IMG/VR virus record: IMGVR_UViG_3300042115_000016
Location: 1 to 49,373 of that record
DNA: 49,373 nt
From: a virus
Direction: 5' to 3' (one strand)
The notes beneath the pieces are model-generated. The model worked only from the letters and a program-made list of their open reading frames with translations. It did no database searches and had not been told where the DNA came from. The position numbers and the translations under genes were made by a program. Shown here piece after piece: positions 15,065 through 49,373 of this stretch. Each line of letters starts with the position of its first letter. Position 1 is the first letter of the stretch.

Positions 15065-17185
15065 ATGCGATTACTGAGTCGCTGCGAGCCTATCAACGGT
15101 TGCGGCAAGACATACCCCGCCGACCTCGACAAATGCCCCCACTGTGGTACGCCTGAAGCATTCAGCGTTGCTGCACCGCTCGACCCACGGGATTGGGGTT
15201 GGGACGAAGAGACATACCCAAATTTTTACTCGGCTGCGTTCATCCACGCCGCCACGGGGTTGGAACAGACATTCGAAATATCGGATCGTCGTAATGACTC
15301 GGCGGCTCTCATTACGTTCATGCTCGGACTGGGTCGCAGCGGTGCACGGGGTGTCGGCTTTAACAACCTGGGGTTTGACTACCCGATTGCACACTGGATC
15401 GTCGCCAACCCCCACTGTGACGTCGCCGGGATTTACGCCAAGGCAATGAGTCTGATTAATGCCTTCGACGAAGATAAGTTCGGGTCAATGATTTGGGATG
15501 ATCAACAGGTGTTCGCCCAACTCGACTTGTACAAAATCTGGCACTTCGACAACAACGCCAAACGTACCAGTTTGAAAGCGCTTGAAATCGTCATGCGGTC
15601 ACAAAACGTGATCGACCTACCGTTCCCCGTCGGGACGTACCTCACTGACGAACAGAAAGACATCACCCTTGCGTATAACCGGCACGACGTGCGCGAAACG
15701 TTGAAGTTTTACGTTCGATCACTTCCTGAAATTCATCTGCGTGAAGCGCTATCGGTGAAGTACGGGCGCAACATGCTAAACATGAGTAACACCAAGATCG
15801 GCGGTACGATCCTTGTCAGCCAGATGGAAGACGCCGGGATTGAGTGTTACGTGCGTGGTCCAGGCGGTAAACAGCCGCGCCAAACGATCCGCGCAACGAT
15901 CAAACTCGCCGATGTGATTTTCCCGTACGTGAGGTTCGAGCGCCCTGAATTCACACGGGTTCTCGAATATTTTCAGTCGATGTCGATCACTCAAACGAAA
16001 GGAACATTTGCTGACCTGACGGCGGTTGTCGACGGGTTCACGTTTGTGTTCGGCGTGGGCGGTATCCACGGATCGATTGAATCACAGGTGGTTGTGAGTG
16101 ACGACGAGTACCAGATTATTGACGTCGACGTTACGTCATTCTATCCGCGCATGGCTATCGTCAACAACATGTACCCCGAACACCTCGGTCCAGAATATTG
16201 CACCATCTACAACAGTATTTTCGAACAGCGCCGGACATTCGCAAAAGGTACCCCTGAGAACGCCGCACTCAAGGAAGCCCTGAACGCATCCTACGGCAAC
16301 TCGAACAACGCCTACAGTCCACTGTATGACCCGCAGTACACGATGCAAACCACCATCAATGGTCAATTGTTACTGTGCATGCTCGCCGAGCAATTTATGA
16401 AAATTCCCGGACTCTCAATGGTCCAGGCGAATACCGACGGCGTGACCGTGCGATGCCCACGCCCCTATCTGGATCACATGCGAGCTGTGTGCAAGTGGTG
16501 GGAAGGGGTTACCGGTCTGGAGCTTGAGGAAGCGCTGTACAGCCGCATGATGATCCGCGACGTTAACAACTACATCGCTGAATACGAGGGCGGTAAGCTC
16601 AAGCGCAAAGGTGCGTACGAATATAACACCCTGTGGCATCAAGACCCGTCGGCACAAGTGGTCGCCCGGGCGGCTGAAGCGGCATTGGTACGCGGCGAGT
16701 TGGTGCGTGAGTTCATCACCAACCACCGCGACCCGTTCGATTTTATGTGTCGCGCAAAGGTGCCTCGGTCAAACTCGTTACATCTGCGCTTCAAGGATTG
16801 GGGTATCGATCAGCAGTTGCAGGGGACGACCCGTTATTTTGTCAGCCGCAACGGTGGAACGCTCGTTAAGGTCGCACCGCCGACGGGCGAGCCTGGGACG
16901 TGGAAGCGTAAGGCGAAGCTGACCGACTCGAACTTCAACGCCGTGATGCGAGAGATTGCTGGCCAACCCGGTGAACTCGACAGCGCCGGTACACCGTGGG
17001 ACGCACGAATCCACACGGGCAACCGCAGCAAGCATGACACCCGCGAAACCGGTATATGCAGCGGCTGGCGCGTCACAGAGTGCGCCGACGCACGTCACTT
17101 CGACTGGTCAGACCTCAACAGAGAGTGGTATATCGCTGAGGCTGAAAAGCTGGTCAACCCGTTGTTGACGGGCTCGTCACGTTAA
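15065..17185 (+). CDS. Family B DNA polymerase
   Basis: This 706-residue replicative polymerase has an N-terminal four-cysteine finger (CEPINGCGKTYPADLDKCPHC, split as C7, C13, C24, C27). The exonuclease domain follows: WDEET (D47, E49), FNNLGFDYP and YNRHD. Polymerase motif A is DVDVTSFYPRM (about 353-363), motif B is KEALNASYGNSN (about 400-412), and motif C is NTDG (about 456), where most family B enzymes have DTD. The C-terminus contains TPWDARIHTGNRSKHD and WRV, a motif shared with the 10662 protein. ATG 15065 has AGGGAG upstream; a longer frame would start inside the terminator. Confidence 0.92.
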   Translation: MRLLSRCEPINGCGKTYPADLDKCPHCGTPEAFSVAAPLDPRDWGWDEETYPNFYSAAFIHAATGLEQTFEISDRRNDSAALITFMLGLGRSGARGVGFNNLGFDYPIAHWIVANPHCDVAGIYAKAMSLINAFDEDKFGSMIWDDQQVFAQLDLYKIWHFDNNAKRTSLKALEIVMRSQNVIDLPFPVGTYLTDEQKDITLAYNRHDVRETLKFYVRSLPEIHLREALSVKYGRNMLNMSNTKIGGTILVSQMEDAGIECYVRGPGGKQPRQTIRATIKLADVIFPYVRFERPEFTRVLEYFQSMSITQTKGTFADLTAVVDGFTFVFGVGGIHGSIESQVVVSDDEYQIIDVDVTSFYPRMAIVNNMYPEHLGPEYCTIYNSIFEQRRTFAKGTPENAALKEALNASYGNSNNAYSPLYDPQYTMQTTINGQLLLCMLAEQFMKIPGLSMVQANTDGVTVRCPRPYLDHMRAVCKWWEGVTGLELEEALYSRMMIRDVNNYIAEYEGGKLKRKGAYEYNTLWHQDPSAQVVARAAEAALVRGELVREFITNHRDPFDFMCRAKVPRSNSLHLRFKDWGIDQQLQGTTRYFVSRNGGTLVKVAPPTGEPGTWKRKAKLTDSNFNAVMREIAGQPGELDSAGTPWDARIHTGNRSKHDTRETGICSGWRVTECADARHFDWSDLNREWYIAEAEKLVNPLLTGSSR

Positions 17186-17193
17186 GCGACAAT
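17165..17193 (+). promoter_or_regulatory. Early promoter with palindromic operator for the IbrAB-like cassette
   Basis: TTGACG (17165-17170), 17 bases, GACAAT (17188-17193). The operator TGACG-GGCT-CGTCA is at 17166-17179. It overlaps the polymerase stop codon. The -10 covers an upstream in-frame ATG at 17192, which forces translation to begin at GTG 17222. Confidence 0.8.
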
Positions 17194-17221
17194 GACACCA
17201 TACACACCAGGGAGATACACC

Positions 17222-17875
17222 GTGCAAGATTTTGAATACCTCGCAGACCTACCACTTGACGAACGTGTTGCCGAAATTAACCGGTTGCGTGCATTGATCC
17301 ACGAGTACAGCCCGTTCAAGTCGGAACCGATTGACTTTGTACGCTGGGTGCCTACCGACTCGGTGTACGCCAACGACTACAACCCCAACAGTGTGGCACC
17401 ACCTGAAATGGCGTTGCTCGAGCATTCCATTGACCACGACGGGTTCACTCAACCAGTAGTCGGCTGGCTCGGTGAAGACGACATGTATGAGGTGGTCGAC
17501 GGATTCCACCGTACAACCGTGGCGAAGCGCTCCACCAGCGTGATGTTACGCCTACAAGGCTTCATGCCCATCGTGGCGATCCAGGCGAAGAACACCGAAC
17601 GCAACGACCGTGTGGCTTCGACCATCCGCCACAACCGGGCACGCGGCAAACACAACGTCGAATCGATGTCAGACATCGTGATCGAACTGAAGAAACGTAA
17701 CTGGTCTGACGAGCGTGTGGCTAAAGAGCTGGGTATGGACCCGGACGAAGTGTTGCGTCTGTGTCAGGTATCCGGTCTGGTCGAAGTGTTCGCCGATGAG
17801 GAATTTTCGACCGCATGGGACGCTGCGATTTTCAGCGACGAGGAACTCGACCAGATTGAAGAGGCTGACCTGTAA
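17222..17875 (+). CDS. ibrB: IbrB-like ParB/sulfiredoxin-fold protein
   Basis: This 217-residue protein has a ParB/Srx N-terminal domain: NDYNPN (51-56), LLEHSIDHDGFTQPVVGW and YEVVDGFHRT (90-98), where the DGxHR box corresponds to the nucleotide-binding GERR of ParB. A predicted helix-turn-helix follows (SDERVAKELGMDPDEVLRLC). IbrB and IbrA are a paired family, known as co-activators in E. coli and found in phages and islands. The GTG start at 17222 is preferred because the ATG at 17192 lies in the -10; AGGGAG precedes the GTG. The stop overlaps the next ATG (TAATG). Confidence 0.82.
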   Translation: MQDFEYLADLPLDERVAEINRLRALIHEYSPFKSEPIDFVRWVPTDSVYANDYNPNSVAPPEMALLEHSIDHDGFTQPVVGWLGEDDMYEVVDGFHRTTVAKRSTSVMLRLQGFMPIVAIQAKNTERNDRVASTIRHNRARGKHNVESMSDIVIELKKRNWSDERVAKELGMDPDEVLRLCQVSGLVEVFADEEFSTAWDAAIFSDEELDQIEEADL

Positions 17876-18300
17876 TGGAACGCATCTATCACACGTGGGA
17901 AAAGTGGGAGTGCTACCCCGCTGGGTTTTACGACAACAAAGGTCCGGCGTGGTTTGGCGATGACGACGGGTGTCAGGAAATGTACCGGGCGTTACTCGTC
18001 GATACCGTTTTGTTCCGCGACATCCTGAGCAAGATCATTCGTGAGTGGAAACACTCGTGTGAACATTACCTAACGAACCCGAACATGAATCGGATCGCGT
18101 GGCTCGGTCAGGCCGCAGCGGCGTACGCGTTTCGCATCCCGTCACGTTACCGGGGCGGTTACAACCTGTTGACCGAAGAACAACAGCAAGTCGCCGATCA
18201 GATCGCCTTGGATGCACTCAACGAGTGGTTGGTAGCGAATGGCGGTGAACCGCTGGCGCCGGACGAAGCGCAGTCCAAAACCGAAATGAACCTGTACTGA
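17875..18300 (+). CDS. Unknown protein between IbrB- and IbrA-like genes
   Basis: This 141-residue protein begins MERIYHTWEKWECYPAGFYD and contains GCQEMYRALLVDTVLFRDIL, KHSCEHYLTNPNMNRIAWLG and AYAFRIPSRYRGGYNLLTEE. It is helical and rich in tryptophan, tyrosine and arginine, with no motif I recognise. The first codon overlaps the IbrB-like stop, and the stop is seven bases before the IbrA-like start. Tight placement between two known partners suggests it is a third component that works with them (inference). Confidence 0.75.
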   Translation: MERIYHTWEKWECYPAGFYDNKGPAWFGDDDGCQEMYRALLVDTVLFRDILSKIIREWKHSCEHYLTNPNMNRIAWLGQAAAAYAFRIPSRYRGGYNLLTEEQQQVADQIALDALNEWLVANGGEPLAPDEAQSKTEMNLY

Positions 18301-18307
18301 GGTCACA

Positions 18308-19516
18308 ATGGAACTTAAAAAATACCTGGACATCAACGTCCTGACCGCCGCCCGTGAGCGGATCGCGTACACGTTCGATCACTTCGAGAACATTTTCATC
18401 AGCTTCAGCGGCGGCAAAGACTCGTCGGTCATGTTCCATCTGGTGATGGACGAGGCGATCAAGCGTAACCGGGTGGTCGGCGTGATGTTGATCGACTTCG
18501 AGGCGCAGTACAAACGCACGTCTGAGCACGCCGACGAGATGTTCGAGCGCTACGCCGATAACATCGACCTGCACTGGATCTGCTTACCGATAAAGCTGCG
18601 CAACGCGTCGAGCAACTTCGAACCCGTGTGGACTTGCTGGGATCCCGAGCGTAAGGCTGACTGGGTGCGCCCGATGCCAACCCGTGCAGGTGTGATCAGT
18701 GACCCGGCGCAACTCCCGTGGTTCCAACCAAACATGGAGTTCGAAGAATTTATCGTCCTGTTTGCTGAATGGTACGGCGGCGATAAACCCACAGCTGCGT
18801 TCGTGGGTATTCGTTGTGACGAGAGTCTGAACCGTTTCCGCACCATCGCCATTTTCAACAAGGGTACGCACGGTGGGAACCGCTGGACGACTGAGGTGAT
18901 GAAGGACGTATACAACGTGTATCCGATCTATGACTGGCGCACCCAGGACATCTGGATCTATCACGCCAAGAACCCAGACCGGGAACACAACGTCATCTAT
19001 GACCTGATGCACCAGGCGGGCGTCAAACCGTCGCAGCAGCGCCTGTGCCAGCCGTACGGCGACGATCAACGTCGCGGCCTATGGTTGTATCACATCTTGG
19101 AACCTGAGACGTGGTATCGCGTCGTCGCCCGCGTAAACGGTGCCAACAGTGCGGCGCTGTACGTCCAGGAGACGGGAAACATCATGGGTTACAACAAAAT
19201 CACATTGCCCGAGGGTCACACGTACAAGTCGTTTTGCAATCTGCTATTGGCGACCATGCCGAAGGTCACTCGGGATCATTTCATCCCGCGCTTCAAAGTG
19301 TTTTTACGAGGATGGAAGGGGCGCGGTTACGTCGATGGTATCCCGGACTTCGCGCCGAAGGTACTTGAAGACAAGCAATGGGCACCGTCCTGGCGCCGAC
19401 TGTGCAAAGTGCTGTTGCGTAATGACTGGTGGTGCAAAGGGTTGGGTATGACACAACCGAAGTCAGAAGCCTACGGTCGATACCTCGTCATGCGCAAAGA
19501 GAAGAAAGGTCGCTAG
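18308..19516 (+). CDS. ibrA: IbrA-like PAPS-reductase family protein (DUF3440 type)
   Basis: This 402-residue protein has the PP-loop SFSGGKDSSVM (33-43), the ATP/PAPS-binding signature of the adenine nucleotide alpha-hydrolase fold. It continues with a long DUF3440-type C-terminal region (VYPIYDWRTQDIWIYHAKNP, QRLCQPYGDDQRRGLW, GKGRGYVDGIPD-like basic loop). IbrA proteins are near 400 residues, so length agrees. True sulfate-assimilation reductases end in a C-terminal ECGLH-type motif, which is absent. A role in sulfur-based or nucleotidyl modification of nucleic acid has been suggested for this group but is not shown here. A terminator follows directly. Confidence 0.85.
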   Translation: MELKKYLDINVLTAARERIAYTFDHFENIFISFSGGKDSSVMFHLVMDEAIKRNRVVGVMLIDFEAQYKRTSEHADEMFERYADNIDLHWICLPIKLRNASSNFEPVWTCWDPERKADWVRPMPTRAGVISDPAQLPWFQPNMEFEEFIVLFAEWYGGDKPTAAFVGIRCDESLNRFRTIAIFNKGTHGGNRWTTEVMKDVYNVYPIYDWRTQDIWIYHAKNPDREHNVIYDLMHQAGVKPSQQRLCQPYGDDQRRGLWLYHILEPETWYRVVARVNGANSAALYVQETGNIMGYNKITLPEGHTYKSFCNLLLATMPKVTRDHFIPRFKVFLRGWKGRGYVDGIPDFAPKVLEDKQWAPSWRRLCKVLLRNDWWCKGLGMTQPKSEAYGRYLVMRKEKKGR

Positions 19517-19537
19517 CCCCGCAAGGGGCTTTTTATT
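19515..19537 (+). terminator. Intrinsic terminator after the IbrA-like gene
   Basis: AGCCCC-GCAA-GGGGCT then TTTTTATT, overlapping the stop codon of the 18308 gene and ten bases before the next promoter. Confidence 0.88.
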
Positions 19538-19546
19538 GTTCGGGTA

Positions 19547-19575
19547 TTGACGGGTTCGTCACGTTAAGCGATACT
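19547..19575 (+). promoter_or_regulatory. Early promoter with palindromic operator
   Basis: TTGACG (19547-19552), 17 bases, GATACT (19570-19575), with the operator TGACG-GGTT-CGTCA at 19548-19561. From TTGACGGG to CGATA it is nearly identical to the IbrAB promoter at 17165, indicating recent duplication. Confidence 0.82.
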
Positions 19576-19603
19576 GACCGGACACAACAGAGGAGTTCTA
19601 CAG

Positions 19604-19762
19604 ATGGGTTATGCAATTGTTGGGTTGTGGATGATCGCAGCCTGGGTCACACATGTGATCGTGTGCTTGAAAGTGGCGAGCTGGGGTTTCCTGATCGCCG
19701 GGGCGTTATTCTTTCCTGTTGCCATTGTACATGGTACTGGCATCTGGTTCGGGGCGTGGTGA
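19604..19762 (+). CDS. 52-residue membrane protein
   Basis: MGYAIVGLWMIAAWVTHVIV is followed by CLKVASWGFLIAGALFFPVA, giving two hydrophobic spans with a short CLK turn between them. AGGAG is placed eight bases before the ATG. Such tiny two-span proteins are common in Pseudomonas phage early regions with no assigned role; a holin-like or superinfection-exclusion function is possible. It is the only gene behind its promoter. Confidence 0.7.
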   Translation: MGYAIVGLWMIAAWVTHVIVCLKVASWGFLIAGALFFPVAIVHGTGIWFGAW

Positions 19763-19763
19763 C

Positions 19764-20039
19764 CTAACTCACGATCCGCAACCCAGCCTCGGCACTGTTC
19801 GAGGCTTTTTCACGTCTGAGCTGTTCACGCAGAATCTCTTCACGCAACGCAGACTCTCGCGCCTCCTGGCGCATTTTACGTACGTGCATGACGATGAGGG
19901 TGATCGACAGGATGATACCGACGACGGTAGCGAGTTTACCGATCTCACTCGGGATCAGATTCAACCACGTCGACAGGCCGGTCACTGTCGTGCTTGCGGA
20001 CACCACGTAGCTGGTTGGCTGAGAGTCGAGAATGCTCAT
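19764..20039 (-). CDS. Holin-like membrane protein with coiled tail
   Basis: This 91-residue protein has one span (IGKLATVVGIILSITLIVMHV, positions about 32-52) preceded by a short polar N-terminus and followed by a charged helical tail (RKMRQEARESALREEILREQ). The plan resembles small class II/III holin-like proteins of HP1-type phages, but it is on the strand opposite to the lysis genes. The start overlaps the stop of the four-span protein (ATGA). It converges with the 19604 gene, one base apart. Confidence 0.6.
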   Translation of the reverse strand: MSILDSQPTSYVVSASTTVTGLSTWLNLIPSEIGKLATVVGIILSITLIVMHVRKMRQEARESALREEILREQLRREKASNSAEAGLRIVS

Positions 20040-36248: not shown

Positions 36249-36480
36249 GGGGTATCGCTGAGAGTACCGGAATAGACACATCCTTTTATTTTATACCCCG
36301 ATACCCTTAATAAATTATATTGGTAGTAGGAATGATATGTATGTAATACAGTAACGTATATAGCTGGCGGCGTGAGAGTGAGATCGATGCGGGGTATTCG
36401 GGTAACACCCCTGAAACCCGCGAGCTAGAGCGCTAGAATCGTACCCCGGATAGGTTACGAGTTTCGGGGTACGGGGTATG
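36216..36480. repeat. CGGGGTA-rich intergenic element, copy 2
   Basis: This is the second, diverged copy of the element at 321-593, in the same orientation, with about eight TACCCCG/CGGGGTA motifs around an A+T-rich core. It lies upstream of the gp10-like/tail operon, as copy 1 lies upstream of terS. The two copies flank the head module (about 13.4 kb across the circle junction). Confidence 0.8.
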
Positions 36481-48909: not shown

Positions 48910-49373
48910 AGAAATCGTCAAGCCTTGCGCGGGTAGTTACTTCACCGGAAAGTTTAATCTCGGTTGGTTTGTTGTAACCCTGGAGATCAGCGATCTGTTT
49001 CATCGCAGCAACTTGACTATGTGTTTTAACTTTCAAGCCGTCTTTACCGGCTGTAAGTTCGCTGATGATTGCAGTACCAGCACCAGTCATTTTATCGGGA
49101 TCTTTAAACGACCATCCAGCTTGTGCAACAACTTCACCCGACTCTTCGTCGATGAGCGGGTTGTTATGTAACGAGATTACATCGTCGATATTAGTTCGGG
49201 CCATCGCAGTTAGACGCTCTAACATTTCCTCACGGGACATGATTGAACTTGCGAGAGTTTTAATTTGCTCGGACTTAAACGAATCGAGAAAACTTCTCAC
49301 CCCCAGATTGCTCAAGATCTGAGCAACGCTCGTATCGGCTGAATCATCGGTTTTCGCTTTGCCACCAGCACGA
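48893..49373 (-). CDS. terS: Terminase small subunit, C-terminal part (continues from left end)
   Basis: This part ends in RLDDFYGSNS and contains AMARTNIDDVISLHN and AAMKQIADLQGYNKPTEIKL, the end pattern typical of Terminase_2-type small subunits ('LxxxxGYxKPxK'). Translation continues from the 5' part at 261-1 across the circular junction; the full protein has 204 residues. An ATG at 49315 lies inside the protein and is not the start. Confidence 0.88.
   Translation of the reverse strand, partial: RAGGKAKTDDSADTSVAQILSNLGVRSFLDSFKSEQIKTLASSIMSREEMLERLTAMARTNIDDVISLHNNPLIDEESGEVVAQAGWSFKDPDKMTGAGTAIISELTAGKDGLKVKTHSQVAAMKQIADLQGYNKPTEIKLSGEVTTRARLDDFYGSNS
49247..49373. repeat. Right copy of exact 127-base terminal direct repeat
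   Basis: Identical to bases 1-127. See the left copy; one copy should be removed when the circle is closed. Confidence 0.95.

Follow-up and report, generated by a model that had tools for sequence, protein, structure and literature searches.

The closest described relative of the locus analysed here is the IbrA/IbrB pair of E. coli and many phages (PHROG 2302 and PHROG 2159, DUF3440), with which it shares homologous genes lying adjacent on one strand. Among 5426 complete E. coli genomes, 1853 have a site that matches 80% or more of the IbrAB pair of phage PhiR5_2, making the pair very common. E. coli IbrAB was reportedly described by Sandt et al. in 2002 as an activator of prophage eib genes. 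The sole experimental work on IbrAB known to us, in E. coli, describes gene activation, and we found no account of IbrAB biochemistry in the open-access literature. Classical IbrAB, as seen in E. coli and in streptococcal, lactobacillar, fusobacterial and Flavobacterium phages, is without the third gene, here called X, that the present locus carries. Because of this third gene, which 73 of 132 relatives carry as a fusion with IbrB, the locus is not the two-gene form, and we refer to it as a variant of IbrAB. The novelty is the third subunit X and its fusions, not IbrAB as such.

Other described systems resemble single components. IbrB is similar to ParB, Noc and KorB in its N-terminal ParB/Srx fold and, as predicted from a fused homologue, in a KorB-type helix-turn-helix (HTH). 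Unlike them, it has DGFHR in place of GERR and no visible ParB C-terminal dimerisation domain, the place of which is occupied by X in the IbrB-X fusions. SbnI and the free serine kinase have the (V)IDGxHR motif in common with IbrB, although this similarity is weak (E 0.3) and IbrB adds the putative HTH. The likeness to Dnd/Ssp and BREX type 4 lies in a PP-loop enzyme of the PAPS-reductase superfamily and, in Dnd, also in a ParB-superfamily protein, DndB (2024 Dnd reappraisal). That reappraisal mentions neither IbrA nor IbrB. In contrast to these systems, there is no universal cysteine in IbrA, no cysteine desulfurase in the phage, and X has no fold match in the PDB.

Layout and transcription of the cassette

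The virus record comprises 49,373 bases and was analysed as a whole (hereafter, the window). An identical 127-nt direct terminal repeat at 1-127 and 49247-49373 suggests that it is probably a complete phage genome. The window also contains two diverged copies of a region of TACCCCGG-type repeats, at 393-594 and 36287-36480 (pieces 84-92% identical), which are possible origin or recombination sites. The three-gene unit of IbrB, X and IbrA, lying between promoter and terminator, was confirmed as real and is made up as follows.

17165-17193, plus strand: predicted sigma-70-like promoter (-35 TTGACG at 17165-17170, 17-nt spacer, -10 GACAAT at 17188-17193)
17166-17179, no strand: operator palindrome TGACG-GGCT-CGTCA, which overlaps the -35 box; 12 copies match exactly across the window
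17210-17215, plus strand: likely ribosome-binding site GGGAGA, of which GGGAG is kept in L001-L005
17222-17875, plus strand: IbrB, 217 aa, ParB/sulfiredoxin-fold protein with DGFHR and a putative KorB/Noc-like HTH
17875-18300, plus strand: protein X, 141 aa, undescribed all-helical family
18308-19516, plus strand: IbrA, 402 aa, PP-loop ATP pyrophosphatase of the PAPS-reductase superfamily plus DUF3440
19515-19537, plus strand: predicted Rho-independent terminator (stem AGCCCC-GCAA-GGGGCT plus T-run)

The first-pass annotation had placed the three open reading frames correctly, with the 141-aa X overlapping IbrB and ending shortly before IbrA: the stop of IbrB and the start of X share one base (TAATG), and the IbrA frame begins seven bases after the end of X. 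Compared with five relatives, dN/dS was about 0.01 for IbrA, 0.01-0.04 for IbrB and 0.04-0.17 for X, the fastest-evolving gene of the cassette. All three frames are thus under purifying selection, indicating that they are genes and not chance ORFs.

The candidate promoter and terminator are convincing as read from their sequence. The promoter is kept in L001, L003 and L004, and its geometry is repeated before the next unit (19547-19575). IbrB had first been read from ATG 17192, which gives a longer ORF of 227 aa. We revise this start, since ATG 17192 falls inside the -10 box and a transcript from the cassette promoter would be without it. The likelier start is GTG 17222, shortly 3' of GGGAGA. 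L002 and L005 have an ATG at the position of this GTG, and the promoter-to-start distance is 57 nt both for IbrB read from GTG 17222 and for the next downstream unit.

The cassette had also been credited with an operator-promoter of its own, a claim that stands for the promoter and terminator but not for the operator, which is shared. Exact copies of TGACG-N4-CGTCA are found across the window at 2749, 3424, 5040, 10601, 13202, 17166, 19548, 25991, 36649, 43083, 45105 and 47135, and a private cassette operator was therefore rejected. With up to one mismatch, there are 20 sites against 4.7 expected, a number reached by none of 100 shuffles. The copies nearly always cover a -35 box, and four related genomes have 9-13 exact copies each. 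This distribution points to a phage-wide regulon, not a private switch. A small operator-driven unit (19520-19765, with a 52-aa ORF at 19604-19762) lies 3' of IbrA in the window and is absent from that place in L001-L004.

The cassette promoter sits at the 3' end of the DNA polymerase gene. The position next to the polymerase is accurate yet incidental, since the cassette of L005 lies elsewhere. There, the cassette genes, with a DNA identity of about 84-90%, occupy a different neighbourhood with a similar operator ahead of them, suggesting that the cassette moves as a self-contained unit.

Protein X and its linkage to IbrA and IbrB

X had no family match in Pfam, PHROGs, NCBIfam or PADLOC and no match among PDB sequences. 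Its predicted structure is all-helical (pLDDT 92.9) and found no PDB fold match, while a fold search of BFVD returned one significant match, a viral protein of 116 aa, the same length as the X homologue of Pseudoalteromonas phage XCL1123. Residues W58, S61, E63, N72, W76 and G78 are kept in all the types aligned. Meanwhile, H6, C13, C62 and H64 vary little or not at all within the main subfamily and occur as a set only there. A universal metal site formed by these four residues was rejected, as it is lost in the Amjad_SA and Gaia types, leaving X without a universal catalytic signature. In tblastn, X had weak matches to Salmonella jumbo phages (E 0.4), which we disregarded. One X homologue (PP438406.1, 26942-27367; L081:4001-4426) was deposited as 'ParB/sulfiredoxin', a label that its sequence does not support and that was probably carried over from fused homologues.

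With X as the only query, 2.9 million viral contigs yielded 106 relatives, 80 of which were kept. IbrB lies immediately upstream and IbrA downstream in 78 of these loci; in the other two, X lies at the contig edge, which alone accounts for the missing IbrB. Among the 78 loci, 52 encode X as the C-terminal portion of a single polypeptide with IbrB, following a variable linker. Two more distant X types, recognised by profile at E=2e-15 or better when a small set of sequences was searched, were represented by Pseudomonas phage Amjad_SA and by Pseudoalteromonas phage XCL1123 with mycobacteriophages Gaia and Nebkiss. They contributed 21 further viral loci, all with IbrA and IbrB, bringing the X-based searches to 101 viral loci, in each of which X neighbours IbrB, IbrA or both.

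After removal of near-identical loci, 132 non-redundant loci with all three genes were available, and in every one the genes share a strand. Four arrangements occur: IbrB-X fusion then IbrA (73 loci), IbrB, X, IbrA as separate genes (42), X, IbrA, IbrB (12) and IbrA, IbrB, X (5). Gaps between neighbouring genes are no longer than about 100 nt in 117 loci. On the IbrA tree, which was made with FastTree and has several long branches, fusion state requires seven changes (fusion or fission), at least four of them on well-supported branches. The earlier suggestion that the middle gene is an additional component of the IbrAB locus is strongly supported by these complete loci and their fusions.

When the search was started from IbrA instead, 76 of the 80 nearest loci proved to carry X, a proportion that speaks for the X clade only, since this search retains the closest relatives. 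Among the remainder, one locus is at a contig edge, the IbrB of L183 is broken or partial, and X is missing from L170 and L192. X was not found in the examined IbrAB loci of E. coli-type, Streptococcus, Lactobacillus, Fusobacterium, Flavobacterium and Chlorobiaceae phages. Hence the absence of X from other IbrAB loci, which the first-pass annotation had named as grounds against its reading, is seen for classical IbrAB but not in the close IbrA clade. X is a near-obligate companion of IbrAB in one phage clade. It is also almost confined to viruses: among 84,980 species genomes, only 5 contained it (four with IbrAB, one at a contig end without either), and a search of plasmids returned no match.

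Domains of IbrB and IbrA

Profile matches bear out the first reading of IbrB as a ParB/sulfiredoxin-type protein with DGFHR and of IbrA as a PP-loop protein of the PAPS-reductase family. IbrB matched PHROG 2159 (E=4e-67), with a weak match to ParB_N, and the annotated IbrAB of phage PhiR5_2 has the same ParB-like partner beside IbrA. The model of a natural IbrB-X fusion has two ordered parts and a poorly predicted linker, and its low pTM (0.48) leaves no interface readable. In fold comparison, the IbrB part of this model resembles Noc, ParB and KorB with a best E of 2e-6, and superposition of the KorB DNA-binding domain on it covers 49 residues at 0.8 A rmsd. IbrB thus models as a ParB-like domain followed by a KorB-like HTH. 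DGFHR is at the aligned position of GERR, the nucleotide-binding motif of ParB CTPases, suggesting that the nucleotide chemistry of IbrB may differ from theirs. The surrounding VIDGFHR aligns with VIDGVHR of SbnI and is closer to it than to the GERR of ParB.

IbrA consists of a PP-loop PAPS-reductase domain (PAPS_reduct, E=8e-15) followed by DUF3440 (E=2e-33), and matched PHROG 2302 at E=3e-83. Among chains of known structure, CysD, FAD synthase and PAPS reductases come closest to IbrA. The PP-loop S-G-G-K-D-S is kept across 16 diverse sequences, one of which has SAGKDS, and several R, E and D positions are kept in all 16. No cysteine is common to the 16 sequences: C247 and C376 are invariant within the X clade, and neither is kept across IbrA. 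The ECGLH motif, which carries the catalytic C-terminal cysteine of PAPS reductase (CysH), is not present in IbrA. The lack of an invariant cysteine argues against PAPS reduction and against thiolation of the DndC type. Meanwhile, the window phage has no match to thymidylate synthase (PF00303), which is evidence against thymine hypermodification via a dUMP hydroxymethylase. In L082 (4239-4595) and L083 (4643-4957), a small ORF after X resembles the C-terminal part of IbrA (the DUF3440 tail), beside a full IbrA.

Proposed function and alternatives

We tentatively favour, at somewhat less than an even chance, the reading that the X-containing IbrAB variant is a three-protein phage machine for ATP-driven DNA or nucleotide modification guided by IbrB. 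IbrB, with its ParB/Srx domain and KorB-type HTH, would bind DNA and a nucleotide. IbrA would use ATP to adenylate and thereby activate a nucleobase or a nucleotide-linked substrate. X, as a helical subunit flexibly tethered to IbrB in the fused forms, may deliver either the substrate or IbrA to the complex. Most probably, phage (or host) DNA or nucleotides would then be modified during infection, which could shield the DNA or alter promoter activity; altered promoter activity would also fit the gene activation reported for E. coli IbrAB. The analysis itself shows the genes, how they are linked and fused, their predicted folds and their motifs; we infer that the proteins form a complex and act on DNA, and likewise what chemistry they carry out and how the phage benefits. 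A three-protein machine is supported by the constant association of X with both Ibr genes across three gene orders, by the 73 fusions and by a minimum of four fusion or fission changes, and the strong purifying selection on the cassette was counted in its favour as well.

Further enzymes have entered the cassette in some lineages.

L113:6299-6739, with equivalents in L098, L101, L104, L108 and L109: GNAT acetyltransferase gene between X and IbrA, in six Amjad-type loci
L082:3075-3467, L083:3122-4021, L115-L118: ectoine-synthase-like cupin in loci of the order IbrA, IbrB, X, either between IbrA and IbrB or fused to IbrB

The cupin-IbrB fusion occurs once, in mycobacteriophage Nebkiss. As judged from gene content, the recruitment of these enzymes would be easier to explain in a modification pathway than in a factor that acts purely on transcription. 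A more specific version of our reading, in which IbrB is the guide, IbrA the adenylating enzyme and X a subunit of a new kind of phage DNA modification, with lineage-specific GNAT and cupin steps and an undescribed nucleoside as product, appears rather unlikely.

The proteins could instead form a transcription regulator, in which IbrB binds DNA via its HTH, IbrA and X act as co-regulators, and phage or host genes are switched without chemical change to the DNA. The reported role of E. coli IbrAB as an activator of prophage eib genes is consistent with this, as is the fold match of IbrB to KorB, itself a repressor, and to Noc. However, IbrA retains an intact PP-loop and invariant acidic residues at a dN/dS of about 0.01, neither of which a purely structural role would need, and together with the inserted GNAT and cupin enzymes this leads us to consider a regulator unlikely. 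Counter-defence or host takeover at the nucleotide level, with IbrB as a kinase like SbnI or SerK, IbrA as a nucleotidyltransferase and a signal or pool nucleotide changed in place of DNA, would explain the alignment of IbrB with the SbnI motif, the weak resemblance of its ParB/Srx core to the free serine kinase (rank 37, E 0.16) and the resemblance of IbrA to CysD and FAD synthase. Likewise, X has the highest evolutionary rate of the three, which might reflect interaction with a host target. Nevertheless, the KorB-like HTH suggests that DNA is the target, and no component resembles a known defence protein, save for weak DndC and BrxP profile matches of IbrA, making this explanation improbable. 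Those same matches (E about 5e-6, partial), the ParB-superfamily partner that the cassette shares with Dnd, and the invariance of C247 and C376 in the X clade would suit sulfur transfer to a phosphorothioate or thio-nucleoside, as in Dnd, Ssp and BREX type 4, with IbrA as a DndC/SspD-like enzyme. Neither cysteine is kept across IbrA, though; no cysteine desulfurase was found in the window phage, for which a host enzyme could substitute, and X matches no solved fold. We regard sulfur transfer as very improbable.

For a pair as common as IbrAB, a constant third subunit repeatedly fused to IbrB shows what to co-purify, and the GNAT and cupin insertions are chemical clues to its activity. The phage cassette makes the function of IbrAB testable with a defined complex.

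No obligate fourth gene of the cassette was found, the commonest neighbour being a helicase family (23 of 145 loci). In four phages without X, a SNF2-type helicase lies near IbrAB, in some of them with a small protein.
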